From an uncultured Bacteroidota bacterium (GTDB lineage Bacteria; Bacteroidota; Bacteroidia; Bacteroidales; WCHB1-69), in contig CADADB010000010.1 of NCBI GenBank assembly GCA_902786595.1, positions 1 to 64,000 on the forward strand: 64,000 nt of DNA. Reading direction: 5' to 3'. Under the pieces are notes generated by a model. That model made no database searches and had not been told where the DNA came from. It was given only the letters and a program-made list of their open reading frames with translations. A program made the position numbers and the translations under genes. Position 1 is the first letter of the stretch; each line of letters starts with the position of its first letter. Shown here piece after piece: positions 6,702-42,813 of this stretch.

Positions 6702-9161
6702 TTTTTTCTCTCTCCTATAATACCACACGATGCCCCCTGCCATACAGCAAAGCATTAAGATCGAGATAATCAGCGTTATATTATCCCATTTGTGCAACAG
6801 CGGAGCTTCATTCTTGAATTCAATGGTGTGTTCGCCCGCAGGGATGACCATGGCGCGGAGAATGTAATTGGCGCGGAAGTAGTCAGCGGGTTTGCCGTCA
6901 ATATAAGCTCTCCAATCTGGATCATAATAGACTTCTGAGAAGACTGCCAACTGATCCTTACCAGTTTTGGTTTTATATACCAAATAATCAGGGTTATACG
7001 GCTTCTGATGCACCATGGTGATGACAGAATTGCTGTCGCGCTCCAAATTCTTCCCTTGCACCATTTCTGCAAAACGCTTGTCGATGACCGCTGTGTCCGC
7101 CGGATTCAATTCGTTGAGCGCCAGAATCTCCGCGTTGGCATCATCCACCAGCTGACATGTATTCACGAACCAAGCGTTGCCTAACGCTTCAGGGTTACGT
7201 TGCACTTGTGCCTGCCCATTCTGTCCGGGCACCACCACATAACGTGCATTCAACATGTTCAGCACACCGGTATTGATGTGGCGGGAGAGGTAGAAATCTA
7301 TAATGTCTTGATACCGACGCAGTTTCGCGGCGCTATATCCGCCAATCTGGTGATGGAAGGCGGAGGGGTAGGAGTCGTTGAAAGTGTTCACCGACAAGTC
7401 GAACACGCGATAGTCCTCGTCTTTGAACTGTGCGGCATACTGATCCAATATTTGATCGGTCTGGCTGGGTTTCAGCTTGATACGCTTCTCCGAAACAAAG
7501 TTGGAATCGTTGAGGTAGCGGCGATCGACACCCCACAAATCGAACAGCACCAGACAGGACAACACCCCGATGATGATGCCGGACTGTTTGATTTTCTGAT
7601 TGATATACAGCCACAAGAAAACGGCTGACACCAAAATCAAAATCAGTGAACGCCAAGAATCGGACATAAAGAGTGCCTTACGGTCTTTCACCAGCACATC
7701 TTTGATCAAATCCCACTGGTTGCCATACTGGGCGGCCATCTGCACATCGCTGGCACCTGAGAAAGAAAAATTGCCTGACAATGCCATCATCAGCAGGATA
7801 AAACCCGCTGTGATGCCCGTGGAGATGTATAGTCCGAGGTTTAATTTCTTTTTGTCAACGGGATTCTCTTTGTCGAAGATAGTTTTCAGGGCTAAAACTC
7901 CCAATATTACCATGGTCACATTGGCAATGACCAAGCTCATGGACGGGGTCCGGAACTTGTTGTATAGTGGCAGATGGTCGAAGAGGAAACTGTTGAATCC
8001 CATCAGGTTCTTTCCCCAAGCCATCATAATGCCGAGAATGGTCGCCAACAAAAGCCACCACCGTTCAGGACCTTTCACAACGAAAAGACCAAGCACAAAG
8101 AGGAAGACGACGATAGCACCGAAATAGACCGGTCCGGAAGTGAACGGCTGGTCGCCCCAATAGAGTGGCGCCTGTTTCTGTCGGAAAGTCTTGTAGAACT
8201 CCGAGTCCGTCCCTACCGTCTCCCCGGATCCGCCGCCGTAGGCCCCGGGAACAAGCAAGGTGTATGTCTCTCCTTTGCCATAACTCCAGGAGAAAGCATA
8301 ATCTTTGTCAAGGCCATTTGAAGCGGTAGTGGACTTTGGCTCACCGTCCTTGTATAGCTCTTCCGGGGTTACAGTGAGTTCCGAACCGCCGCGCATGGTG
8401 TATTTCATATATTCCTGATTGACAATCAAGTGCCGGGCGTTGCTGCCAACGGCAAAGACAGCACCAATCAACAAGACGCATATTCCTATAAGGTAAGACT
8501 TTATCTCTTTATCTTTAAGAGCATAAACCAGATACACCACCCCTAAGATAATACCTATCAGCATCGTGTAGAATGTGATCTGAATGTGGTTAAAGTATAT
8601 TTGTAATGCCAAAGCGAGGGTAAAGAGGATACCGCCCCACACATAATTTTTCCTGAATGCCAACAACATACCTCCCAATATGGGGGCCATCATCGCCATC
8701 GCCCAACCCTTGGTGATATGTCCAGCTTCAATGATAATGATATTATAGCTCCCCAACCCGAAAGCCAAGGCGCCCAACATGCTCAACCAGGGATTGCATC
8801 CCAACGCCAACAGACAGACGTAAAAACCGATCAGGTAGAGGAAAATCATCGCGATGTTGCGTTCCCAGCCCATTGGACGCATGATTAGAAGCGATTTTAT
8901 CGGGGCAAGGGTGGTTTTTGCCGGAGGTGAGGAAATCTGGTATCCGGGCATACCGCTGAACATGGAACTTGTCCATGCCGTGAATTGTCCAGTCTTCTCT
9001 TGAAAATCAACCTGTTCTTTAGCCATGGCAGCCACTTTCATCGTATCTCCCTGTTGGATGACTTTGCCATCAAAGACAGGAGACATATAGACGGCCGCTA
9101 TGAGAAAGAAGAACAGAATGATTCCGCAATGGATAAGGGTTTTCTTAAGAGCAGGTTTCAT
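6696..9161 (-). CDS. YfhO-family multi-spanning membrane protein
   Basis: The 821-residue protein has an N-terminal membrane helix, a long series of hydrophobic spans (about a dozen) and a soluble domain near the C-terminus before a final helix and a basic RREKKS tail. The layout and segments such as MPGYQ and the late YDPDWRAYIDG match YfhO (GT-C-like) proteins. In Gram-positives YfhO helps glycosylate lipoteichoic acid. In Bacteroidota its role is unproven, but transfer of a lipid-linked sugar outside the cytoplasmic membrane is likely. Its promoter lies in the divergent region shared with the GT4 gene. Confidence 0.85.
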   Translation of the reverse strand: MKPALKKTLIHCGIILFFFLIAAVYMSPVFDGKVIQQGDTMKVAAMAKEQVDFQEKTGQFTAWTSSMFSGMPGYQISSPPAKTTLAPIKSLLIMRPMGWERNIAMIFLYLIGFYVCLLALGCNPWLSMLGALAFGLGSYNIIIIEAGHITKGWAMAMMAPILGGMLLAFRKNYVWGGILFTLALALQIYFNHIQITFYTMLIGIILGVVYLVYALKDKEIKSYLIGICVLLIGAVFAVGSNARHLIVNQEYMKYTMRGGSELTVTPEELYKDGEPKSTTASNGLDKDYAFSWSYGKGETYTLLVPGAYGGGSGETVGTDSEFYKTFRQKQAPLYWGDQPFTSGPVYFGAIVVFLFVLGLFVVKGPERWWLLLATILGIMMAWGKNLMGFNSFLFDHLPLYNKFRTPSMSLVIANVTMVILGVLALKTIFDKENPVDKKKLNLGLYISTGITAGFILLMMALSGNFSFSGASDVQMAAQYGNQWDLIKDVLVKDRKALFMSDSWRSLILILVSAVFLWLYINQKIKQSGIIIGVLSCLVLFDLWGVDRRYLNDSNFVSEKRIKLKPSQTDQILDQYAAQFKDEDYRVFDLSVNTFNDSYPSAFHHQIGGYSAAKLRRYQDIIDFYLSRHINTGVLNMLNARYVVVPGQNGQAQVQRNPEALGNAWFVNTCQLVDDANAEILALNELNPADTAVIDKRFAEMVQGKNLERDSNSVITMVHQKPYNPDYLVYKTKTGKDQLAVFSEVYYDPDWRAYIDGKPADYFRANYILRAMVIPAGEHTIEFKNEAPLLHKWDNITLIISILMLCCMAGGIVWYYRREKKS

Positions 9162-26632: not shown

Positions 26633-27087
26633 AACCGCTAAAACAATACCGTTTCGGCTTTGACCCGTGGGGCTTGCTCCTTTTCCTGCTGGTAATGCTC
26701 CCCAACTTCATCTGGTTTGCCGTTCCCGCACCGAACGACATCCTGCGCACGGATTCGATCACGCCAGTGGTGGACACCATCGGTTCCGTGTTCCAAGTCC
26801 TGACCGTCGCGTGCCTCTGTTTCGTCATCCGTAAGAGCAAAAGCAAACCTCATCTCTCGCCACTTATCATCGCCACAATTGTTTGTATCGCAATCTATTA
26901 CATCGGATGGGTGTTATATTACACAGCCAATGTAAACCCCGTCGTCATCCTCCTGCTGACTATTCCGCCCTGCTTGGCGTTCATCCTCTTTGCCGCCGAC
27001 CGCAAGAACCTACCGGCAATCCTCTTCGCCACAGCGTTTGCGGTGTGCCATCTGGTGTTTGCGGTGGTGAACTTTATACTCAAATGA
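26629..27087 (+). CDS. Small four-helix membrane protein
   Basis: The start at 26629 forms an ATGA overlap with the CAT-like gene. A longer frame from 26305 is a shadow of that gene. The 152 residues hold about four hydrophobic helices (LLLFLLVMLPNFIWF, VLTVACLCFVI, IIATIVCIAIYYIGWVLYY, and a C-terminal pair). I recognise no catalytic motif. The two ATGA overlaps on either side mean that it is translated together with an acyltransferase and a CDP-alcohol phosphatidyltransferase. Confidence 0.75.
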   Translation: MKPLKQYRFGFDPWGLLLFLLVMLPNFIWFAVPAPNDILRTDSITPVVDTIGSVFQVLTVACLCFVIRKSKSKPHLSPLIIATIVCIAIYYIGWVLYYTANVNPVVILLLTIPPCLAFILFAADRKNLPAILFATAFAVCHLVFAVVNFILK

Positions 27088-27581
27088 AACACCTCCCAAA
27101 CTTCATAACAGTTCTCCGGTTCCTTGGCGCTCTCGGTCTCCTCCTCTTCGATGTGAGAAGTGTCGCCTTTTGGGTAATATATTTCGCCTGCGGACTGAGC
27201 GATATGGTAGATGGTTTCTTGGCAAGGAAACTCCACTGCGAAAGCAAAACAGGAGCACTGTTGGACAGTCTGGCAGATTTGGCGTTTGTGGTCGGCTGTT
27301 GCATAAAGCTGATCCCTGTCTTGGCTCTTCCCCATTGGCTCTGGCTCTGGGGCGCGGCAATCGTCGTCATCAAAGTCATCAACCAGATTTCCGCCATAGT
27401 GATGTACAAGAAATGTGTTTTCCCGCACACCATCGCCAACAAGGCGGCTGGTCTTCTGCTTTTCGTCGGAGTTCCATTGACCGTGTTTCTGGAGTCTGTC
27501 GTGCCAATGGTCATTATAGCCGTTGTCGCGACCTTTGCCGCCGTTCAGGAGGGGCATTTCATAAGGACGAGGTCGGTGTGA
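27084..27581 (+). CDS. CDP-alcohol phosphatidyltransferase family protein
   Basis: The 165-residue membrane protein carries the full family motif D-x2-DG-x2-AR-x8-G-x3-D-x3-D: D40, D43-G44, A47-R48, G57, D61 and D65. Several membrane helices follow. Such enzymes transfer the phospho-alcohol part of a CDP-lipid (or CDP-alcohol) to an acceptor such as glycerol phosphate, inositol or serine. It is short but complete. Its start overlaps the stop of the previous gene by ATGA. With the CAT-like enzyme it may make or modify an unusual lipid; that link is inference. Confidence 0.85.
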   Translation: MKHLPNFITVLRFLGALGLLLFDVRSVAFWVIYFACGLSDMVDGFLARKLHCESKTGALLDSLADLAFVVGCCIKLIPVLALPHWLWLWGAAIVVIKVINQISAIVMYKKCVFPHTIANKAAGLLLFVGVPLTVFLESVVPMVIIAVVATFAAVQEGHFIRTRSV

Positions 27582-27619
27582 ATTGTAAATAAACTATCTG
27601 TATGTTTGCAAAAAAAATG

Positions 27620-27627
27620 TATTTTTG
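27620..27627 (+). promoter_or_regulatory. -7 box of the DUF1016 gene
   Basis: TATTTTTG followed by CAGC, 23 bases before the start codon at 27651. Confidence 0.6.
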
Positions 27628-27650
27628 CAGCTCACTAAACCTTTAACAAA

Positions 27651-28847
27651 ATGAATAAAAAACCGACATTCGTATCCCGTGACATGATGACTTCCGACGA
27701 GGGCTATGTGCAATGGATGGCCGACATCAAGCAGCGTTTCCGCCAAAGCCAATTGAAAGCCGCAGTTCGAGTAAACACCGCCATGCTTGAGTTTTACTGG
27801 AGCGTAGGCCGAGATTTGGTGGCACTGCGTGCTGAAGAGCGTTGGGGATCTGGCGTGGTTAAGCAATTTTCCCTCGATATGCGACAAGCATTCCCCGATG
27901 AAACAGGCTTCTCATATTCCAATGTGAAATATATGAAGCAATGGTATTCGTTTTATTATGAAAGAGTTACAAAAGGCCAACGACCCGTTGGCCAAATTAG
28001 TCACCAAGCTGGTGACGAATTTGAAGCCTTTGAAAAAGGCCAGCAAGCCGCTGACCAATTAGAAGGCGATAAAAAAGGCCAACGAGTCGTTGGCCAATTA
28101 GAAATGCCTGAGTTTTTTGGCCAAGTGCCTTGGGGACAACATATTGATGTTGTTTCCAGATGCGAGACATTAGAAGAAGCATTATTCTATGTTCAGCAGG
28201 TTGTGGATAGAGGTTGGTCTCGTCTGGCACTTAATGCTAATATTGACAAACATCTGTATCAATCCCAAGGTGTGGCGATCACCAACTTTGCAAACACTTT
28301 GCCCGCAACGGAGAGCCAGTTGGCCAAAGAACTGCTGAAAGACCCCTACCATTTCGAATTCCTTTCGATGAACGAGAAATATGATGAGCACGATTTGGAA
28401 GATGCGCTTGTGTCAAAGGTCACGCAGTTCCTATTGGAGTTGGGCAAGGGTTTCTCGTATGTGGGGCGTCAGATGGAGCTGCAAATGCCGGGTGGGCAGA
28501 CCTTTTTCCCAGATTTGCTGTTTTATCACATTCCGCAGCACCGCTATGTCGTCGTCGAGTTGAAGGTGGTGAAGTTCATCCCCGAGTTTGCTGGCAAGCT
28601 GAACTTCTACGTCACCGCCGTTGACGAGTTGCTGCGTGCGGAGGGCGACAACCCCACCGTGGGACTGATCATCTGCAAATCGACGGACAAGACCGTGGTG
28701 GAATGGTCGTTGAAGGACATCAACAAACCTCTTGGCATATCCACTTACCAGCTTGAGCAGGTGGTCGAGCGCACGGTGAGGGAGTTGGAGCAGAAGAAGA
28801 GAGAATCAGGGGGTGCTGAGCGTGCTGGAAGCACGCAATTCCAATAA
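27651..28847 (+). CDS. DUF1016/YhcG-family protein with PDDEXK nuclease domain
   Basis: The 398-residue protein has the DUF1016 N-terminal domain (WMADIKQRFRQSQ, FYWSVGRDL, GFSYSNVKYMKQWY) and a C-terminal PDDEXK nuclease domain. The latter shows FFPDLLFYH, YVVVELKVVKF (the D...ExK core) and VGLIICKS. Members occur near restriction systems and mobile elements and are thought to act in DNA cleavage or defence. The linker (about residues 108-165) is made of GQ-rich units encoded by a row of small hairpins. The C-terminal AGSTQFQ comes from the hairpin repeat that follows, so the natural C-terminus may have been altered. Confidence 0.88.
   Translation: MNKKPTFVSRDMMTSDEGYVQWMADIKQRFRQSQLKAAVRVNTAMLEFYWSVGRDLVALRAEERWGSGVVKQFSLDMRQAFPDETGFSYSNVKYMKQWYSFYYERVTKGQRPVGQISHQAGDEFEAFEKGQQAADQLEGDKKGQRVVGQLEMPEFFGQVPWGQHIDVVSRCETLEEALFYVQQVVDRGWSRLALNANIDKHLYQSQGVAITNFANTLPATESQLAKELLKDPYHFEFLSMNEKYDEHDLEDALVSKVTQFLLELGKGFSYVGRQMELQMPGGQTFFPDLLFYHIPQHRYVVVELKVVKFIPEFAGKLNFYVTAVDELLRAEGDNPTVGLIICKSTDKTVVEWSLKDINKPLGISTYQLEQVVERTVRELEQKKRESGGAERAGSTQFQ
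27975..28133 (+). repeat. Row of hairpins encoding the DUF1016 linker
   Basis: Six short inverted repeats lie nearly head to tail inside the coding region: GGCCAACGACCCGTTGGCC (27975-27993), TCACCAAGCTGGTGA, GCCTTTGAAAAAGGC, a degenerate GGCCAGC copy, GGCCAACGAGTCGTTGGCC (28077-28095) and CCAAGTGCCTTGG (28121-28133). They encode GQRPVGQ-, GQQAADQ- and GQRVVGQ-type units. Confidence 0.85.
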
Positions 28848-29060
28848 CCCCATACTAAGGCCGACAGGCCGCAGTGTGGGGTGGAATGCGCGGCGGAAGT
28901 CTGCGTGCCAGAGGCACGCCACTACTCGACTCTCTGATAGTAGCGTGTTTTCAACACGCCATCGACGTGCTGCCGCCGCCGTCACCCCACATTGCGCTCC
29001 ACTTCGTTACGCTGATGTGGGGTTATTCGAATATCGTGCCTCCGGCACGCGAAGTCCGTT
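28813..29060. repeat. Hairpin-rich dispersed-type intergenic repeat
   Basis: A chain of inverted repeats: GCGTGCTGGAAGCACGC (28820-28836), GCGTGCCAGAGGCACGC, GCGTGTTTTCAACACGC, CCCCACAT...ATGTGGGG (about 28984-29023) and CGTGCCTCCGGCACG (about 29036-29050). The first supplies the DUF1016 C-terminus and stop codon. I see no gene in it. It resembles multi-hairpin intergenic repeats seen in Bacteroidales. Confidence 0.8.
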
Positions 29061-29986: not shown

Positions 29987-30041
29987 TTGAATTTGAAAAT
30001 GTTGAGTAATAAAAATGCATACTTATAAATGATAATGGATT

Positions 30042-31511
30042 ATGGAAGAAAAATATGGCTTGTTAAAATTGGGAAGTGTAAAAAATTTGAAAACTAATGA
30101 AAAAGGACAAAATTGCGTGTCAATTTTATCACTTTTACTGGGTCGCAAAATAACTTTAAATGAAATTAATGCATTCATAGAGTCAGATGTTTTTTTTCTT
30201 GAATATGTTGACAAGTACGGGAATGTTACAGAAAGTGACTCTTGTGTAGGATTTCGATTCAGGTTGCCATGGCGAGATGCAAATGGAAATGATATCTATG
30301 GCCATTTCCAAAAAAACGGTTCCATGTTCATAGGTGTTACATGGGGAGGAAAAAGAAATTTGAAACTAAGAAAGTACGGATACATTGATCAAATTTGCTG
30401 GGAAAAACTAAAAACCATAAGTGGTCATGATATAACAGAGAGTAATATTGGAGACTATATTACTTCCGATATTGAACATTACAATGGCGCCGGTTATACT
30501 AAATTTCCAGATGGTACCGTAGTAACTTCGGAGACAGGAAAATTTGTTAAATTTAACACAAGTATCTCTGTAAATGGCGAAGTTTTAGTCGGTTGGTTCA
30601 CAAAAAACAAACTAGGACGTTTTGAGGGAATTACTTGGGGTACGGAAGCGGATTTTAAGTCAGCACAAGATTTAAGAGAACAGTTTTATGTAGGACGTAT
30701 GGTTTTCGATTCAATAGAAGAATGCAATCTGTTTTTGGAAGAGCTAAAGAAGAAAACCATTCTTGAGCCATGGGAATATAAACGCAAAAAAGACCATACT
30801 TTTAAAAATCCAATATTGAAATCCTATTTGCAGTTTGAATTGGATAGGCTTTTCTATGAACAAGATTCGTTAAACTATCCTGATAGGATAATTATCAACA
30901 AAGACCACAGCAAAGCGTTGTTTAATACGAATCTCATTAACAAATTTGGAGATGATTTGATAATAGTTGGTTCTCTTCTTGAAATATCCAATAAATGTTA
31001 TTTGAGCGAGCTTGAGATATCTCCCTCCATGATGAGTTTGAAAAAGATGGGCTTTGACACATCAAAAAATCCTATTCCACCAATGTTTTTTAAGGACATA
31101 AACGAAATCATATTCCACTGTGATTGGGATATTGATAAAGATTTAGAGAAGTATGAACATATTATTGAAGAACGCAAAGAAAGATTCCCTGAAAAATACC
31201 AAGTACTAACAACAGATGATTTAGGACGAAGACTTAACAATGCAATACAACTTGCAAAAAAGATAGCACAACGAAACTACAAGTTTATTGTACCTATGTA
31301 CTACCCTACAGCAAGAAGAATTCAGTTATTAATGCCGATTTATTTAGAAACATCTTATTCGTCACATCCGGATTTTGCATTAGTATTAACTCCTCATTCG
31401 GAAGAAAGGTTATATACTCTCGAAACAATACTTGGATTGGATGAAGTGTACCAGGATGCACGATTAATAGCAAAGCCTGAAGAATCTTGGCTTAACCCTG
31501 AGATGTTATAA
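30042..31511 (+). CDS. DUF3825 domain protein
   Basis: The 489-residue protein ends with a domain whose conserved points (FNTNLINKFGDDLIIVG, YPTARRIQLLMPIYL, PDFALVLTP, ARLIAKPEESWL) match DUF3825 as I know it. The N-terminal half holds two similar segments of about 45 residues (near residues 70-115 and 145-205, each with GF/GYxxF...G...F...GxTWG). These look like a duplicated small beta domain. DUF3825 has no firmly known activity and occurs near RNA- and stress-related domains. It is the first large gene of the AT-rich island; a 167-base gap separates it from the kinase-like chimera. Confidence 0.7.
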   Translation: MEEKYGLLKLGSVKNLKTNEKGQNCVSILSLLLGRKITLNEINAFIESDVFFLEYVDKYGNVTESDSCVGFRFRLPWRDANGNDIYGHFQKNGSMFIGVTWGGKRNLKLRKYGYIDQICWEKLKTISGHDITESNIGDYITSDIEHYNGAGYTKFPDGTVVTSETGKFVKFNTSISVNGEVLVGWFTKNKLGRFEGITWGTEADFKSAQDLREQFYVGRMVFDSIEECNLFLEELKKKTILEPWEYKRKKDHTFKNPILKSYLQFELDRLFYEQDSLNYPDRIIINKDHSKALFNTNLINKFGDDLIIVGSLLEISNKCYLSELEISPSMMSLKKMGFDTSKNPIPPMFFKDINEIIFHCDWDIDKDLEKYEHIIEERKERFPEKYQVLTTDDLGRRLNNAIQLAKKIAQRNYKFIVPMYYPTARRIQLLMPIYLETSYSSHPDFALVLTPHSEERLYTLETILGLDEVYQDARLIAKPEESWLNPEML

Positions 31512-31678
31512 TATAATACTGCAAGAAAGTCTCGGATAAGTAAAAGGACAAAATATGTTAAAAAAATAATAGTGTAAACATTCCCTTTTTGAATGTACCT
31601 TGTGTTCTTTAAGAAGTTTTGACGCAGGAATTGTAAACTAAATAAATCTACAAATAAAAAACAACAAAATTATCATGT

Positions 31679-34675
31679 ATGAAATACCCTACAGTTTCAG
31701 AATATATAGAATCTCTTCGTGTTGCAAATGATAATCTTGCAACTTTGACATCTTTGGAGCTTGTTCTTGGTACAGATGGAAATCCAACTTATTCAAAAGA
31801 AAACCATGGTGTTGTCTTTCGGATGAAAGATAGGGATACCGATTTAGAGTATAATGTAAAATGTTTTACTGATGAACAAGAAGGCAGAGAAACATTGTAT
31901 GAGCAAATTAATAATAGTCAAGGTGTATGGATCCCTGATGGAGTTAAATATTATGCTAACGAGCTATTTGTAGATACTGCGATTTCGGATGCTAATGAAT
32001 TTCCAGTTGTTGTTATTCCTTGTTGCAAAACGACAAACCTTATTTCTTTTATCAACACAAACATTGCAAATTGCTCGCTTATCTCAAAACTTGCAGATAG
32101 TTTTAGTTGTGTTGTAGAATGGGTTAAAGAAAAGGGTTGCTTTTGGCATGAACTAAATGTCGATTCACTTTATGTGAACGATACTGGTCATATTGTTGTT
32201 TCGGATATTGACGGACACATTGAAACAACTAATTCTACCAAGAAAAACGATGATTTGAGCGCATACCTAATTCTTCTATCGCTAAAAGCACTGTATAGGG
32301 ATTCAAGTTTGTTCAATGCAAAAGACGTCAAGCCGTATATTCTCTTCGATGGGGATAATTTCACCGAGCTTCCTGCAAATGAGATTATTACAAGATTGTC
32401 GATATTAAATGATTCGGAGATTTCATCCATAATTAGTGATGTTTTCGTAAAAATTGGACATGGCAATTCTAATGAAACGCGAAACGACTTGCAGCAATCC
32501 GAGATTTATGAAGACGGCCTAAAAATGATGGCGGAAAAGGGAAATGTTACAATGCAATTGCAGCTGGCGCGGAAATGTTGGGATAATGAAATGTATGAAG
32601 AATCATTTAAATGGTATAAACAAGCAGCATCTCAAGAGGATGCAGATGGTTTATATGGCTTAGGATTGTGTTATCGTAATGGTTTTGGAATAGAAAAGGA
32701 TTTGACAAAATCATTTCATTGTTTTCTTAATGCTTCTGAGTTGGGATTGTTGGATGCTCAATATGAACTTGCTGAAGCATATTATTTCGGATGGGGAGTT
32801 CGCAAGGATAAGACAAAGGCAATGGATTTGTATTTCAAAGCTGCTCAAAGGGGGCATGCTATGTCAGAATTTATGATTGGTCATTATCTTATGTCCAATC
32901 GTGGAGAGATTGACAGCTCTTTTGCCATTACAAGTAAACGTGATACAGTGAAGGCATTTGAATGGTTTTTGAAATCCGCTAAACAAGGTTATCATCCTGC
33001 ACAACGAAGGATAGGTGCATTCTATGAAACCGGCACAGACCCTTGTGTAAGAAATATTAGCAAAGCTATGGAGTGGTATCAAAAGGCAGCTGCCCAAGGT
33101 AATGATAAAGCCTTGTTTGCAATAGGAAGATTGTATGCCAATGGTCTTGATGAAAGAAATCCTGATAACAAGAAAGCTTATGAGTATTATTTGCAAGCGG
33201 CAAATAAAGGTCTTCGTGATGCTCAGTTTAGGGTAGGTGTTGCATTGTTATTTGGCAAGGGGATAGACAAGGATAAAGATGCAGCTGTTGAGTGGATTCG
33301 AAAATCTGCTGACAAAGGTTATGCGGCGGCAAAAAAGCTTATCATTGAAATTGAATATAGTGAAGAAGTCTCTGAAGAAACGGGAACCACAGGATTAGAA
33401 ATTGTATCTGCTACTATTGACGATTATGGTGTTCTTTATAGTCAAGACGGGAAAAAACTTTTGAAATATAGTATAGAAGAAGGATTCGATAGTGCTGGAA
33501 TATACGGTGGTTCAATAAGCATGTTTGATGAAGAAAGCGAATTTGGAAGCATAAAACAACAAAGTTTAAATCAATATAAAGTAAAAGAAGGGACAGAGAT
33601 AATCTGCGAGAATGCTTTTTACGAATGCGAGTCTTTACAATCAATTACATTTCCTCAATCATTGAAGCGAATAGGAGATGATGCATTTTACCAATGCGAG
33701 AATTTGGAATATGTTGGAATTAATGAAGGTCTAGAAGAGATAGGGAACAATGCGTTCAATGGTTGCGTGAATCTATCATCAATAGTATTACCTCGATCAC
33801 TTAAGCGGAGTGTTGCAGGAAGTACTTTTACGGGGGTTCAGGATATAGTATCTAATTCTGAAAAATACATTTGTGAAGATAATTGTCTGTATACATCAGA
33901 CTTTCACACTCTTATTTATTTCTTTCAAAATGGGGAGGACTACCTTGAAATACCGTATGGGGTTAAAACAATTGGAGCTTATGCATTTTCGGAATCTGAT
34001 ATTAGACATGTTGATATTCCCGAATCTGTAACTGAGATAGGGTACTGTGCTTTTTCTCATTGTATGAATTTAAGACATATATATTTACCACGATCCATAA
34101 TAGAGATTGGCACTTCTGCATTTTATTGGTGCAAGAAATTAATTGAGGTTGATTTTCATGAAGGATTGGAAACAATTGGCCTTGATGCGTTCTTCAGTTG
34201 TGAAAACTTAGGTGATATAAAAATTCCTGACACAGTAAGAGAGATTCAAGACAGGGCTTTTGCGTTTACCGGTATTGATTCGATAACTTTCCCGAAAAAC
34301 CTAAAAATACTTGGTCGAGATCCATTTATTTCTTGCCCTCTGAGTGAAATCGTGTCTTTTTCTGAAAGATTTGTTGTTAAAGACATGGCAATATATTATG
34401 ATGAAGGAAAGACTTTCATTAATTATTATGGTAAAGATACGAGGTTTGAAATTCCAGTCGGAGTAGAAAAAATCGCAGATTGGGCACTCTCAAATGCGTA
34501 TTCTCTTCAAGAGATTGTGATTCCACAAACAATAAAGCAAATCGGGTGCGGATTTCTGCTTGAAGCATCGCCAAAAAAAATATTTGTCCCATCCAAGATT
34601 AGAGATATTCTTATTGATAAGATACCATCCTATTTAGCCGACCGTGTATTTATGATTGAAGATGATAGTAATTGA
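31679..34675 (+). CDS. Kinase-like / Sel1-repeat / BspA-type LRR chimera
   Basis: The 998-residue protein has three parts. Residues about 1-265 look like a protein-kinase fold: a glycine-rich turn near ENHGVVFRMK, lysine K61 in YNVKCF, a catalytic loop WHELNVDSL (156-164) and DID at 176-178. Compared with HxDLxxxN and DFG, the catalytic Asp is Glu158 and the Asn is Ser163, so activity is doubtful. Residues about 275-560 are Sel1-like repeats (AAAQGNDKALFAIGRLYANG and similar). Residues about 590-985 are LRR_5/BspA-type repeats (AFYECESLQSITFPQSLKRI). Both repeat types bind proteins, so it may be a sensor or scaffold. The next gene overlaps its 3' end. Confidence 0.75.
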   Translation: MKYPTVSEYIESLRVANDNLATLTSLELVLGTDGNPTYSKENHGVVFRMKDRDTDLEYNVKCFTDEQEGRETLYEQINNSQGVWIPDGVKYYANELFVDTAISDANEFPVVVIPCCKTTNLISFINTNIANCSLISKLADSFSCVVEWVKEKGCFWHELNVDSLYVNDTGHIVVSDIDGHIETTNSTKKNDDLSAYLILLSLKALYRDSSLFNAKDVKPYILFDGDNFTELPANEIITRLSILNDSEISSIISDVFVKIGHGNSNETRNDLQQSEIYEDGLKMMAEKGNVTMQLQLARKCWDNEMYEESFKWYKQAASQEDADGLYGLGLCYRNGFGIEKDLTKSFHCFLNASELGLLDAQYELAEAYYFGWGVRKDKTKAMDLYFKAAQRGHAMSEFMIGHYLMSNRGEIDSSFAITSKRDTVKAFEWFLKSAKQGYHPAQRRIGAFYETGTDPCVRNISKAMEWYQKAAAQGNDKALFAIGRLYANGLDERNPDNKKAYEYYLQAANKGLRDAQFRVGVALLFGKGIDKDKDAAVEWIRKSADKGYAAAKKLIIEIEYSEEVSEETGTTGLEIVSATIDDYGVLYSQDGKKLLKYSIEEGFDSAGIYGGSISMFDEESEFGSIKQQSLNQYKVKEGTEIICENAFYECESLQSITFPQSLKRIGDDAFYQCENLEYVGINEGLEEIGNNAFNGCVNLSSIVLPRSLKRSVAGSTFTGVQDIVSNSEKYICEDNCLYTSDFHTLIYFFQNGEDYLEIPYGVKTIGAYAFSESDIRHVDIPESVTEIGYCAFSHCMNLRHIYLPRSIIEIGTSAFYWCKKLIEVDFHEGLETIGLDAFFSCENLGDIKIPDTVREIQDRAFAFTGIDSITFPKNLKILGRDPFISCPLSEIVSFSERFVVKDMAIYYDEGKTFINYYGKDTRFEIPVGVEKIADWALSNAYSLQEIVIPQTIKQIGCGFLLEASPKKIFVPSKIRDILIDKIPSYLADRVFMIEDDSN

Positions 34676-35363
34676 GTCAAAAAGAAAGAAACAAGAAACA
34701 TTGCAGAAGGAATATCCTAATGCGGTGTTTTGTGATGTGACGAGCAAATCACCATATCTTGGATTAAGGCAATTAAGTCCGTTTTATCCATGGGGAGGTA
34801 TACCTGTTAGTTTTTCACCAGGAGTTGAAGCCTCTTGTGTAGAAGCAGTATGGCAAGGATTGAAAGTGTTTGAAAACGCTGATGTTGATACGGAATTGTT
34901 TTTAAACAACACTATGAAAGGTCTAAAACGCTCGTCACGAGTTTATGGTAAAGTCTTGGGGCACAGGAAAGGTGTTGATGGTGAAATATTACTTAATTAT
35001 CATGATGCTCGTAGAAAAATATACATTCCCACATATAAGTGGATGTTGGAACATAAAGCTTTTTATACCATTGAATATTTAAGGGCTTTTTGCCAAGAAA
35101 ACCCCAACGTCACTCTCGTATTATTAGATTATCAGACAAATAGCAATATTGAGGATCTAACCAAGCCTTTGTCTCACGCATTTTTGGTTAAATCATACGT
35201 AGAGGGATTGCCTCCGTATGATGATGTAGTGATAGAGAAAACGGTTCACCATGTGGTCGTTGGGCGACGTGTTCATGAATGGCAAACAAAAGAGTATTCA
35301 TTTAAGAAGCTCCCAGTGGTTGACGACAATAACAAACAATTAGCAATTGATTTCGATGAATAG
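34662..35363 (+). CDS. DUF6939-like protein, possibly a distant NADAR domain
   Basis: The 233-residue protein starts MIVIESKRKK; an in-frame ATG at 34656 is also possible. Either start overlaps the kinase-like gene, and its end overlaps the DarT gene by 8 bases. The sequence matches a family I recall as DUF6939 (CDVTSKSP, SPFYPWGGIPVSFSPG, GLKRSSRVYGKVLGH). The stretch SPFYPWGGIP ... VEAVWQGLKVF resembles the NADAR pattern SNFAxxP ... SEHYFQAQKF, with a conserved glutamate. NADAR proteins remove ADP-ribose from guanine, and some are antidotes to DarT toxins. The NADAR link is inference. The C-terminal NADAR motif (WGxG...G.N.LG) is not seen. Confidence 0.55.
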   Translation: MIVIESKRKKQETLQKEYPNAVFCDVTSKSPYLGLRQLSPFYPWGGIPVSFSPGVEASCVEAVWQGLKVFENADVDTELFLNNTMKGLKRSSRVYGKVLGHRKGVDGEILLNYHDARRKIYIPTYKWMLEHKAFYTIEYLRAFCQENPNVTLVLLDYQTNSNIEDLTKPLSHAFLVKSYVEGLPPYDDVVIEKTVHHVVVGRRVHEWQTKEYSFKKLPVVDDNNKQLAIDFDE

Positions 35364-36765
35364 AAGGAAGGATTACAAAGAGTTTAAGCAACTTCTTGAG
35401 AAGTATAATATTACAAAGTTTTATCACTTCACAGACCGTGACAATGTTGATTCTATAATCAAAAATGGTGGACTGTTCTCTTATGGTGATTGTATTAAAC
35501 GCGGAATTAGAATAAACAGGCCAGGTGGGTCGGCGTTGTCGCACGAACTGGATTATAAAGAAAATTTGCAAAATTATGTTAGGGTTAGTTTATGCAAGAA
35601 ACATCCAATGATGTTTACAGCAATACAGGATGAACGAATCGTAAACCCTGTGATATTGGAAATTGACACAGATGTTCTTTTTATAAAGGGTAATATTTTT
35701 TCAGATAAGAATGCGGTTCGGAAAGATTCATGTAAGGGAAAGAGTTTCGCTGATTTTAGCAGAATACATTTCAATACAGTCAAACAAAGGAACCAATTTG
35801 AGGTTGATGATGACGAGCAAGACTATTATCAGGCAGAAATACTGGTACCACATCACATCTCGCTTAACTATATTTTGAATTTGACCGATTTCCAAACATT
35901 GGATTCTGAGAGAAAAGAGAGTTGTCTTAAGATACCTTATTCTTCAGCCATTACTCGGGAAAATCCAGCTGGTATTTTCTTCATACTTAATCAATCGTAT
36001 CCCACAGAAGAAAAGATAGAGTATGGAGGTGAAAAGATGTCCAAGGCAAGAGTTGAAGGAGGCATTGTTGATAAAGTGATAAACGAACTTATTTTGAGTA
36101 ATACAAGTAATGGTGTCCTCAATGATAAGTATAATATTTCTGTTATTGGATATGGTGACTATGCGTATAGTTGCTTTGAAAAAGGAAATGTTCATACTTT
36201 GAAAGAGCTCCAAGATAATCCATTGTTTGTTAGAACAATGTCCAAAAAAACTAAGACACGACAAGGAACAAAAACAATCGAGATAAAACAACCAACATGG
36301 ATAAAAACTAATAGTGATGGGGATGCAAAACTATATAAAGCCCTAAATAAAGCTCGAGATATAATTGAGAACTGGGCAGAGGAACATGAATCGTCATACC
36401 CACCTATTGTGATACACATCACAGAATACAGATACCATGGCGCGGATGATAGTGATATGAAGCAAATGGCAAACCAAATAAAGTCCATATTTACAAAAGA
36501 TGGGAATGCCTTGTTTTTCAACATCATTCTCACGGAAAAGGAAGATGCTGTTTCCGTACTATTTCCATATGACAATCAAGCAGTTTCAGACTCATATTAT
36601 GGGACGATGTATTGTTTAATGTCCAGCATTTTGCCAAAATCATTTAATCAAAATGTCGCTTGTTTTAATGAGATTGAAGATGTTTTATGTCAAAGATATG
36701 GAATAGCCTTTAATGTTAAATTCAAGGACTTATTTGATACTATACTCTCTATTATACCAAAATGA
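35356..36765 (+). CDS. DarT-like DNA ADP-ribosyltransferase fused to a degenerate vWA domain
   Basis: ATG at 35356 is preferred over TTG at 35347; 469 residues. Residues 1-180 follow DarT (DUF4433): YHFTDRDNVDSIIKNGG with H24 and N30, LQNYVRVSLCKKHPMMFTA, VILEIDTDVLF, and YYQAEILVPHHISL with the presumed catalytic E161. Family members ADP-ribosylate thymidine or guanine in single-stranded DNA. Residues about 205-469 resemble the vWA domain of stress/conflict clusters (FFILNQSYPTEEK, ISVIGYGDYAYS, PIVIHITEYRYHG). Its metal site is altered: DxSxS reads NQSYP and the late ITD reads ITE. No macrodomain (DarG) antitoxin gene is adjacent. The upstream overlapping gene is the candidate antidote. Confidence 0.75.
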   Translation: MNRRKDYKEFKQLLEKYNITKFYHFTDRDNVDSIIKNGGLFSYGDCIKRGIRINRPGGSALSHELDYKENLQNYVRVSLCKKHPMMFTAIQDERIVNPVILEIDTDVLFIKGNIFSDKNAVRKDSCKGKSFADFSRIHFNTVKQRNQFEVDDDEQDYYQAEILVPHHISLNYILNLTDFQTLDSERKESCLKIPYSSAITRENPAGIFFILNQSYPTEEKIEYGGEKMSKARVEGGIVDKVINELILSNTSNGVLNDKYNISVIGYGDYAYSCFEKGNVHTLKELQDNPLFVRTMSKKTKTRQGTKTIEIKQPTWIKTNSDGDAKLYKALNKARDIIENWAEEHESSYPPIVIHITEYRYHGADDSDMKQMANQIKSIFTKDGNALFFNIILTEKEDAVSVLFPYDNQAVSDSYYGTMYCLMSSILPKSFNQNVACFNEIEDVLCQRYGIAFNVKFKDLFDTILSIIPK

Positions 36766-37059
36766 ACTGGTCTTGTAAGTATAAATATTCTCTTTTGATA
36801 TTTACAGAACGACACCTGAAATCACCATTTCAGACAATTCGCGACAGGTGAACTTTTTATGACAAGAATATTTTGCAACCAGCTGTCATTTAGTGAATTA
36901 TATGATTGTTTGTGGTAATTTTAGTGAACCAATCAGTCCAAACAAACATACAATCAGCAAGGCATCGCTAGGTTTTTCAACGGCGACGAGACGCTGGAGA
37001 GACAAACACCCCCCTCTTTGCAAGCCTTGCAAACCCCGCCCTCATCACCCGAAATATCG
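36766..37059. other. Non-coding gap at the right edge of the AT-rich island
   Basis: No convincing gene. It holds AT-rich sequence to about 36990 and then an abrupt change to GC-richer sequence with the palindrome TTTGCAAGCCTTGCAAA (37017-37033). It could contain the island boundary, but no attachment-site repeat is recognised. Confidence 0.5.
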
Positions 37060-37067
37060 TATTTTTG
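37060..37067 (+). promoter_or_regulatory. -7 box of the 37104 gene
   Basis: TATTTTTG followed by CGCCGG, 36 bases before the start codon at 37104. This marks a transcription unit separate from the DarT operon. Confidence 0.6.
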
Positions 37068-37103
37068 CGCCGGTTAATAATTGTAAGAAAGAGTGCTCAT
37101 ATT

Positions 37104-38222
37104 ATGAATGATACACTGCCAAAAGAAGTCCATCGTCAGAAGGCTTTGTTCAGTCGGGACCTGCCTTTTGAGCCTCAATATGGCATGATGCTGTATATCG
37201 AGGCGGGCGCGAATGAAGAGGTCAACGAGTACTTTCACAAAAATATGGAGAAGGCTTGCCGTATTTTGGGCAAATCGTTTACTTATTTGCCGGAAATGTT
37301 GGACAAGCTGGTGCAAATTGTGGAGTACAACTGGCCGGAGACCGATTCCGCTTGGATAGAGAAGGCGAAGTCCGATCCGTCGTGGATACAAGACACTTAT
37401 CGGGAAATCCTCTCCTACAGGATAGACAAAGAAGACGAAATGCCCGAATTGCCTCTGCAAATCGTGGAATTACCCATGCTAATGCGCCATGAAGAGACCT
37501 CTTTAGACGGCCATGTTTTCACTCTGTTTCCACTTCTGTACAGTAACGACACCCAATTCGAGCAATTGTTGACGGCCATCGCGCAGGCGCCTCGTCCTGA
37601 TTCGAATACATTTCATAGTACGCTTATTGAACAGCCCCTGCGTTATAGCCGCTTGCGGGAGCGCGTGGATGTTGACCCCAAAGACAACGCGGACTGGGGG
37701 AGAATCGATGTGCTGGCGGACGAAATCCGGCAGCGAATCGAGGAAATGCGCTCGATTGGGGTGTCCGACTTTGTCATAAAGAAACTGATTGCATTGCCTG
37801 ACCCAAAACTGAGCACGCTTCGCATCACCAAGGATTACGGCATTTTCCTGCCCGACTACAACGATATGGAAATCTCCCTGCCGACACTCTCCAAGGTGGT
37901 CTATTTCTTCTACCTGCGCCATTCCAAAGGATTGCGGTTCAAGGAGTTGATCGACTACCGCGAGGAGTTGCTGCAGATTTACCGTCTTATATCTAACCGT
38001 TATGACGCGGCTAAAATGGAGCAAAGCATCGACGATTTGGTTGACTCCACCGGCAATTCCATCAATGAAAAGTGCAGCCGCATCCGCGCCGCCTTTGTAA
38101 GCCGGTTCAGCGATGATCTGGCCAAGAACTACTACATCACGGGATCTTCCGGTCAGGCGAAATACATCCCCCTCGACCGCAGTTTGGTGATAGATGAGGC
38201 GGGGATAACAAACAAGCTATAA
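37104..38222 (+). CDS. Conserved-looking hypothetical protein
   Basis: The start at 37104 suits the promoter at 37060. An upstream in-frame start at 37065 would lie on the -7 box. The 372-residue protein is soluble and rich in charged helices, with no signal peptide and no motif I recognise. A middle segment LADEIRQRIEEMRSIGVSDFVIKKLI and a C-terminal SRIRAAFVSRFSDDLAKNYYITG look like ordered conserved blocks. Base composition is like the core genome, unlike the island to its left. Confidence 0.7.
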   Translation: MNDTLPKEVHRQKALFSRDLPFEPQYGMMLYIEAGANEEVNEYFHKNMEKACRILGKSFTYLPEMLDKLVQIVEYNWPETDSAWIEKAKSDPSWIQDTYREILSYRIDKEDEMPELPLQIVELPMLMRHEETSLDGHVFTLFPLLYSNDTQFEQLLTAIAQAPRPDSNTFHSTLIEQPLRYSRLRERVDVDPKDNADWGRIDVLADEIRQRIEEMRSIGVSDFVIKKLIALPDPKLSTLRITKDYGIFLPDYNDMEISLPTLSKVVYFFYLRHSKGLRFKELIDYREELLQIYRLISNRYDAAKMEQSIDDLVDSTGNSINEKCSRIRAAFVSRFSDDLAKNYYITGSSGQAKYIPLDRSLVIDEAGITNKL

Positions 38223-41507: not shown

Positions 41508-42155
41508 TCAAATGAACAGGGTTTCAAGCGTACATCCGAGCACGCGGGCCAAGGCAAAAACCGTCTGCACCTCGGCTTTCCGGATGTCCTGGTCCCCTTG
41601 TTCGTAGGCTTGGATCATGCGCAACGAAACACCGGAAATTTCCGACAGCTGCTTTTGCGTGATTCGTTGCTGCTTTCTTATGGTTTTCAGCATATTATGG
41701 CGCTCTTTCAAATGCCGTTTCATAATGGCGGCAGCTGTGGCCACGAATTTCGTGAGATCCGCTTCGTGCAAGGTGGGATAAAGCGAAAGTACTGTATTGA
41801 TATCCAATCCGTTACGCTGAATGAATGAGAACGAGTAGGTTGATTGCCATTGGTAATAGGCCAACGCCCATCCTACCCAGTATTCGGGCGTGCGTTCAAA
41901 TAGGCTGAATTCAGTTTCGGGGATCCGAATGTCGGATGACCGCGTCAGTACTTTTCTCATCAGCTCCATCCCTGACAACCCGGAGACATAGCGAGGATTG
42001 CCGGTCTCCATTTGTGCGGCGATTCCGCTGGAGAGGAACATCTCGTAATAGGCGTTCAGATCGCAATGCGCGACACGGACAGCACAATCGAGCATCGTGC
42101 CCAAGTTGTGCATGGCATCCTCAAGGTAGAGTTGATTATAGGCGGGGGTCATCAT
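41508..42155 (-). CDS. Helix-turn-helix (XRE-type) antitoxin
   Basis: The 215-residue protein has an all-helical N-terminal domain and a C-terminal HTH (about residues 155-210: RKQQRITQKQLSEISGVSLRMIQAYEQG, followed by ALARVLGCTLETLF). It follows the DUF3990 gene on the same strand, overlapping it by 20 bases. That tight order and the palindrome at the operon promoter suggest an antitoxin that represses its own operon. Known DUF3990 neighbours in other genomes are often small HTH or DUF proteins of this kind. Confidence 0.75.
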   Translation of the reverse strand: MMTPAYNQLYLEDAMHNLGTMLDCAVRVAHCDLNAYYEMFLSSGIAAQMETGNPRYVSGLSGMELMRKVLTRSSDIRIPETEFSLFERTPEYWVGWALAYYQWQSTYSFSFIQRNGLDINTVLSLYPTLHEADLTKFVATAAAIMKRHLKERHNMLKTIRKQQRITQKQLSEISGVSLRMIQAYEQGDQDIRKAEVQTVFALARVLGCTLETLFI

Positions 42156-42813
42156 TGTTCCAGTTTTGTCTCAGAATATCAATCATGTAAATGGCATCAG
42201 AGGCGGTGGCCATTGTTTTTTGGTTTTGGAAGTCCTCGCGTGCTTGCCGGTCACGCGCCATCCGTTTGGGATAATATTGGCTGCTATCCACCGGAATGCT
42301 TTCAATAAAATGCAATTGCGCGAAGGCCCTTTCGGATTTCAACACCACTTGCTCACCCAAATTCCCTAACATCATTGCCTTGCGCAACTGCTCCAGCGAA
42401 ATGGTGTTGTTCAGGAAAGCGTTCGCAAATGCAAAATAGGAGTCGTCGGCCCGGTAGCCGACAATCAAGTCGTATGGCTCATAATCAGGCAGAAAATGAT
42501 TTAATAGGTATTCTTTTGCATCCGATGGCAATCCTTGCGACAGCACAAAAGTCCTGTTTTTCAGCAAAATCGAAAGCCAATTCAGAATATGATAGGGCTT
42601 TGTGTTCAATCGAAGAATCTGCAACCCATCAAGGATAAGTTCATAATGGTTGGCAAAACCATCGCTCTTTTCGGTGCTGGCCCATTCTTTCGCAAGTTCC
42701 GGGTTTTCAGTACAATAAAATCCCAACCCATAATCATTCTTCGGGTTTCCAATGCCGAGTTCAGGTCGCTCAACCACCTTCGTCGAGCCGTGATATAATG
42801 TCAGATTATCCAT
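42136..42813 (-). CDS. DUF3990 protein, ADP-ribosyltransferase-like toxin candidate
   Basis: The start at 42813 gives 225 residues. A much longer frame upstream overlaps the opposite-strand thioesterase and is a shadow. The N-terminus LYHGSTKVVERPEL followed by DYGLGFYCTENPELAKEWA is the DUF3990 signature. That family is regarded as related to ADP-ribosyltransferases (YHG-S and GxGFYxT strands forming an NAD site). The C-terminal part has YDLIVGYRADDSYF. Together with the overlapping HTH gene it forms a likely toxin-antitoxin operon; toxicity is inferred from the family and the arrangement. Confidence 0.75.
   Translation of the reverse strand: MDNLTLYHGSTKVVERPELGIGNPKNDYGLGFYCTENPELAKEWASTEKSDGFANHYELILDGLQILRLNTKPYHILNWLSILLKNRTFVLSQGLPSDAKEYLLNHFLPDYEPYDLIVGYRADDSYFAFANAFLNNTISLEQLRKAMMLGNLGEQVVLKSERAFAQLHFIESIPVDSSQYYPKRMARDRQAREDFQNQKTMATASDAIYMIDILRQNWNNDDPRL

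Follow-up and report, generated by a model that had tools for sequence, protein, structure and literature searches.

In this study, we analyzed a 64,000-nucleotide stretch of DNA from an uncultured Bacteroidota bacterium (assembly GCA_902786595.1, contig CADADB010000010.1; hereafter, the window) and identified a gene that fuses a DarT-type ADP-ribosyltransferase domain to a TerY-type von Willebrand factor A (vWA) domain. It is preceded by genes for a DUF6939 protein and a repeat-bearing kinase-like protein (Table 1). We propose that the locus encodes a DarT/NADAR toxin–antitoxin pair placed under a TerY-P-like switch by covalent fusion of the toxin to the vWA domain, i.e., a DarTG1-like module within a TerY-P-like triad, and we put the probability of this reading at roughly 0.6. 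With the effector inside the same protein as a TerY-type vWA domain, a link between phospho-signaling and DNA ADP-ribosylation becomes directly testable. Among the papers listed in literature searches covering open-access papers and a minority of subscription papers, none describes a DarT–vWA (TerY) fusion or DUF6939.

Profile searches bear out an earlier note, made from the DNA letters alone, that had read the protein as an N-terminal DarT fused to a vWA domain. PF14487 (DarT) matches residues 26–178 of the form that begins at an alternative in-frame TTG (position 35347, upstream of the ATG), scoring 99.7 bits, well over the cut-off of 22.5 (E 2.3e-28). In the same protein, PADLOC detects TerY at residues 197–464 (E 2e-34) and DarT (E 6e-16). 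The NCBIfam equivalog toxin_DarT (NF048013) gives 41.7 bits, below its equivalog cut-off of 150. H24, N30, and the catalytic E161, which the note had aligned by eye, are invariant in all 11 aligned DarT domains. When a profile of 11 relatives was compared with structures, the best match in the PDB was DarT1 from E. coli C7 (8baq, E 1e-12); 7omu, a macrodomain-annotated chain, and the DarT2 structure 7omv gave 6e-8 and 4e-4, respectively. M86, N119, and E161 of the window protein map onto M71, N104, and E152 of C7 DarT1, for whose chain we assumed numbering one above native, an offset that agrees with all four residues mapped. These three residues are described as essential in C7 DarT1, and N104 contacts the target base (PMC11543638). 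The macrodomain antitoxin DarG is absent beside the fusion, as had been stated: in the eight neighboring open reading frames (ORFs), the part of the window scanned with Pfam, there is no Macro match, and no MoxR ATPase was found among these neighbors.

A likely antitoxin gene, however, is present, contrary to what had been supposed: the start of the fusion gene is overlapped by 8 nt by a gene for DUF6939 (PF22075). The DUF6939 protein is NADAR-like by three routes (weak profile match, hhalign, and fold), and it has the NADAR/YbiA fold together with the catalytic Glu/Lys pair seven residues apart. Among 393 genomes of the order, DarT neighbors DUF6939 in six of the seven that bear the latter, and DarT with DUF6939 also exists without a vWA domain in two genomes (G430 and G645), a P. 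distasonis plasmid, and a viral contig. DUF6939 gains a fold and a probable role in this way. Elsewhere, a DUF6939 domain was seen by eye to be fused to a YbiA-type, NADAR-looking domain (L111:6814–8070, minus strand). Unlinked DUF6939 genes in L036 and L037 (approximately 8410–9161) are clustered with KptA-, macrodomain-, sirtuin-, and ADP-ribosylglycohydrolase-like genes, again by eye.

The fusion recurs in other genomes, namely G456 (99% identical) and G009, G633, G703, and G617 (37–41% identity), and it is therefore not an assembly accident. G456 and G009 belong to the same genus, in which 3 of 40 genomes match, the window's own included, and the other three represent two further families. 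In the order, 15 of 393 genomes match at E ≤ 1e-8, with both domains covered in four, including the window's own; a phylum sample gave 20 matches in 395 genomes at E 1e-5, and both domains were covered only in the window's own. The gene order in G633 and G617 is repeat-bearing kinase, DUF6939, DarT::vWA, and PP2C, with genes touching or nearly so, and G703 and G009 match this order from the start of their cut contigs onward. DUF6939 lies directly before the fusion in all six cases, and PP2C follows in four, being absent behind the fusions of the window and G456. PADLOC E values in the relatives are 7e-40 and 9e-51 for STK_OB, 1e-11 to 4e-9 for PP2C, and 5e-54 and 2e-63 for TerY, three models that we take to be PADLOC's TerY-P set. 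The triad of vWA, PP2C, and kinase is complete in G633 and G617, in which Pfam also finds a protein kinase (E 2.6e-9 and 8e-13, respectively). G498 encodes its vWA domain in a gene of its own, and DarT there is fused instead to the C-terminal side of a domain resembling PP2C (phmmer E 6e-22; alignment), with DUF6939 between the DarT fusion and the vWA gene and a PP2C gene alongside. This swap of covalent partner within one gene set points strongly to a functional connection. The repeats of the kinase gene vary in type: Sel1 in G633, leucine-rich repeats (LRR) in G617, and WG in G308. G617 has two tandem copies of the kinase gene (L066:1602–7691); most of their kinase domain is nearly the same, whereas their repeats have diverged. 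In G752, a lone DarT (L067:7800–8345, minus strand) is a truncated relative that keeps the fusion linker; the stretch read around it shows neither a vWA domain nor an adjacent DUF6939.

In the window, the 998-aa kinase-like protein contains Sel1 and LRR_5 repeats (Pfam) and an STK_OB match at residues 56–179 (PADLOC, E 9e-5), and its first 260 residues match the G633 kinase (phmmer, E 3.6e-32). A block at 31629–37247 is approximately 99% identical to G456 outside the LRR part, whereas the DUF3825 gene directly upstream is 81% identical; the three genes thus travel together, consistent with recent exchange. Compared with G456, the kinase-like protein retains 49 or 50 of 50 residues per block over residues 1–650 and 13 to 25 of 50 over residues 651–998, and the DNA alignment has a gap at 33633–34645. 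Divergence confined to the LRR half is as expected of a sensor that has been exchanged or diversified. The GC content per 1-kb bin is 33–37% over 30000–36999, the DUF3825 gene included, 39% at 29000, and 41–55% in bins 27000–28999 and from 37000 on.

The C-termini of many DarT-linked NADAR-type proteins share a further feature. Residues 191–235 of the window DUF6939 have pLDDT values below 50 in the predicted model, and this tail contains the peptide QLAIDF. The corresponding peptides of other DarT-linked DUF6939 proteins include QLSLF, QLNLF, QRSLF, QTTLF, and QGKLF, and QLDIF also occurs among the tails. A pattern defined after the tails had been seen (Q..[LIM]F or Q[LIM].[LIM].[FL] within the last 15 residues) matches 10 of 11 DarT-linked DUF6939 sequences versus none of eight unlinked ones (p 1e-4; the tail sequences are related, not independent, so that p values serve as guides only). 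The miss is the P. distasonis protein (QTNNLF), and the window and G456 are near-copies within the 11. Three unlinked sequences found later also lack the pattern (0/11), and the search that found them returned no further DarT-linked DUF6939. Canonical NADARs match in 10 of 20 cases, the set being 19 of 28 plasmid records plus G203, with nine omitted (five near-copies by score, four unread) and near misses, including QASLL (L027) and QMNLI (L028), scored as misses. The NADAR-linked DarTs (L084–L100, L027, L028, and L040) are of two types, one with Asn and the other with Val or Ile where the base is contacted. By type of neighboring DarT, the tail is present in 9 of 10 cases with Asn and in none of eight with Val or Ile; for two canonical NADARs, the 800 bases upstream contain no DarT ORF, and these contribute one match and one miss. 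Among ORFs of at least 120 aa in the loci examined, the tail occurs on 2 of 521 non-NADAR proteins, some of which are surely not genes given mechanical ORF calling, and on 19 of 37 NADAR-type proteins. Shuffled tails match at 0 to 2.4%. Bacterial ligands of the beta sliding clamp are described as having a C-terminal QL(S/D)LF with further variability possible, and the toxin SocB binds the clamp through such a motif (PMC9690074). Among the papers listed in the open-access searches, none connects the clamp with NADAR or with DarT antitoxins, and a word search of two NADAR papers gave "Clamp" solely as an author name.

Several known systems resemble the locus in part. DarTG1 (DarT1 with a BC4488-type NADAR), described as an anti-phage system with a NADAR antitoxin (PMC11543638), likewise has DarT beside a NADAR-fold protein, and the two agree in the closest PDB structure, the Asn at the base-contacting position, and the clamp-like tails on canonical NADARs. 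They differ in that the partner in the window is DUF6939, not PF22397, the toxin shares a polypeptide with a TerY vWA domain, and the set adds a kinase and, in the relatives, PP2C. DarTG2 (DarT2 with the macrodomain protein DarG) shares the DarT fold and catalytic Glu, but the window has Asn instead of the DarT2 His, the DarT2 structure scores lower than DarT1, and the eight scanned ORFs lack a macrodomain. TerY-P, a reported anti-phage triad (PMC7699616, PMC11090510), comprises the same three protein classes as the relatives by PADLOC profile. Here, however, a predicted ADP-ribosylating effector is fused to the vWA domain, the C-terminal part of the kinase consists of Sel1 repeats, LRR, or both, where the published passages describe an OB fold or zinc ribbon, and the window has neither PP2C nor active sites. 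The passages of the TerY-P literature consulted contain no statement of what the triads act on. The vWA-MoxR ternary conflict systems also combine a vWA scaffold with effector domains, some with vWA domains without the aspartates of the metal ion-dependent adhesion site (MIDAS) (PMC7159879), whereas the scanned neighbors in the window lack a MoxR ATPase and the locus has kinase/PP2C components instead.

We propose the following pathway, drawing on knowledge of these families. DarT would be the toxin, covalently tied to the vWA scaffold, and DUF6939, a putative NADAR-fold hydrolase, the antitoxin; sensing is likely the task of the repeat-bearing kinase, and PP2C, in the four of six loci that have it (window included in the count), the probable counter-enzyme. 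At rest, the NADAR protein, probably tethered to the clamp through its C-terminal peptide, would erase ADP-ribose from bases of single-stranded DNA at host forks. When the repeat domain binds a trigger, this may alter the kinase/vWA/phosphatase assembly, presumably through phosphorylation, and free or concentrate DarT, which would then mark single-stranded DNA, possibly that of a phage and probably at guanine, and halt replication. In the window lineage, the phospho-chemistry and metal binding have been lost, and control is therefore probably exerted by direct binding among the pseudokinase, vWA domain, and antitoxin. We tentatively extend this proposal, in a form that we hold to be less likely than not, to DarT-linked NADAR antitoxins as clients of the sliding clamp. 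The eraser would ride the host replisome, so that host forks are cleaned and forks run by a phage polymerase and clamp are not, a distinction of self from non-self by location. The toxin would in addition be locked to the kinase/phosphatase/vWA switch, which in one lineage may now act through binding alone, with no phosphorylation and with an LRR sensor that changes fast. If so, the tails would offer a specific explanation of how a cell tolerates a DNA-marking toxin and yet lets phage DNA be struck.

Several observations weigh against the proposed switch-controlled pair. The suggestion that a protein assembly, instead of simple antitoxin loss, controls DarT is supported by the kinase, vWA, and PP2C of the relatives, but in the window the vWA metal site, kinase active site, and phosphatase are all gone. 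The kinase-like protein has no Pkinase match in Pfam up to E 1, its catalytic-loop residues are lost (WHELNVDS replaces the HGDLKPDN of G633), and the activation loop is deleted. With the PP2Cs of four relatives as queries, tblastn of the window gives nothing below E 1. In the vWA domain, the metal site DxSxS...T...D has become NxSxP...A...E (N212, P216, A324, and E357), while it is intact in the other 10 of 11 aligned sequences; G456, outside that set, shares the changes. Kinase and phosphatase activities cannot be expected in the window, and either the switch there operates with no MIDAS metal and no phosphorylation from this kinase, or the antitoxin alone must restrain the toxin. R52 of C7 DarT1 falls on Y67/K68 and has no clear equivalent, although several NADAR-linked DarTs lack it too, and the window/G456 DarT pair sits on a branch of 0.97 compared with 0.13–0.22 for the end branches of other fusions. 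DUF6939 scores 20 bits against PF22397 (DarT1-associated NADAR), under the Pfam cut-off of 27 (26.3 bits for the P. distasonis homolog). Its hhalign probability with NADAR is just 55%, and the invariant D158, an ambiguous candidate for the third catalytic acid, aligns with E173 of the C7 NADAR, two residues off D171. The PP2C-like half of the G498 fusion has no PP2C match in Pfam or PADLOC. Finally, the signal of purifying selection against G456 rests on few changes.

These losses, the missing PP2C, and the long DarT branch could also mean that the window system is a decaying remnant, with a broken TerY-P switch and drifting genes. We consider this quite unlikely because all three reading frames are open, the block is shared at approximately 99% by two species of the genus, and divergence is limited to the LRR half. 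Moreover, nonsynonymous change relative to G456 is lower than synonymous change in each of DUF6939, DarT, vWA, and residues 1–560 of the kinase-like protein. Pooled over the last two, there are 5 nonsynonymous changes in 1998 sites and 8 synonymous changes in 519 sites (p 0.0015), suggesting that the loss of the switch is a settled state rather than drift, although the numbers are small and the DarT branch is long. The window and G456 separate toxin from switch, with toxin and antidote retained and the switch chemistry gone. A plain DarTG1-like pair, with the vWA domain as an oligomerization or localization tag and the kinase and phosphatase as chance neighbors in a defense island, would suit the DarT–DUF6939 pairs without vWA and the further candidate defense genes in the window. 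We regard it as unlikely in view of the conserved, nearly contiguous gene order in G633 and G617, the partner swap in G498, and the TerY class of the vWA domain.

The target of the mark and the role of the tails allow other explanations as well. DarT might modify RNA or protein rather than single-stranded DNA, with DUF6939 reversing that mark: NADARs are reported also to undo guanosine ADP-ribosylation on RNA (PMC11833690), a NADAR antitoxin against an Rhs-like toxin is described (PMC11125620), and on a Bartonella plasmid (L031:2–5549) DUF6939 is the second gene after one for an Rhs repeat protein, the position of an immunity gene. We give this little credence, as the nearest solved relative is DarT1, the guanine-contacting Asn is kept, and the clamp-like tails suggest replicating DNA. 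It is a real possibility, short of even odds, that the Qxx[LIM]F-like peptides at the C-terminus serve to attach the antitoxin to DarT or to some other partner instead of the clamp, because the tails track linkage to DarT, not the NADAR fold, just as a DarT-docking peptide would. Against this, tails including QLSLF, QLNLF, and QLDIF are identical or close to the clamp pentapeptide in the literature (PMC9690074), and this holds in two divergent NADAR families.

Table 1 Coordinates of the DarT::vWA locus and its parts in the window.
Feature	Positions	Strand	Remarks
Kinase-like N-terminal domain (pseudokinase in this lineage) with Sel1 and BspA-type LRR repeats; candidate sensor	31679..34675	+	998 aa
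LRR half of the kinase-like gene	33630..34672	+	Diverged between two otherwise near-identical islands (window vs G456)
DUF6939; NADAR-fold candidate antitoxin/ADP-ribosyl hydrolase	34656..35363	+	Overlaps fusion gene
QLAIDF; beta-sliding-clamp-binding-like peptide	35337..35354	+	Residues 228–233 of DUF6939; tail predicted disordered
DarT::vWA fusion gene	35356..36765	+	469 aa from ATG; ORF list, Pfam, PADLOC, recurrence in relatives
DarT domain of fusion	35356..35910	+	PF14487; M86, N119, E161 kept
TerY-type vWA domain of fusion	35935..36738	+	PADLOC TerY; metal site degenerate

Other defense-type genes lie near the locus or its relatives. Upstream of the island, the window has a PDDEXK-type candidate defense gene (27651–28847, plus strand; PADLOC PDC-S02, E 2e-128), and such a gene is also present downstream of the G009 operon and near the G796 DarT (by phmmer for the latter). 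A DUF3990 gene with a helix-turn-helix partner (41511–42810, minus strand) matches the candidate defense models PDC-M42A and PDC-M42B. In a Parabacteroides plasmid (L026:5281–9403) and a viral contig (L078:4769–8953), DarT and DUF6939 are followed by membrane-type and ZorB (MotB-like) genes, the membrane-type gene matching ZorA in L026 only; a Zorya-like system with a DarT/NADAR effector is possible there. In L073 (4318–9423, minus strand), a DarT gene, a 519-aa ORF, a weak MotB_plug gene, and an ADP-ribosylglycohydrolase gene (PF03747, E 9e-45) stand in a row with no visible DUF6939, and the eraser may have been exchanged.
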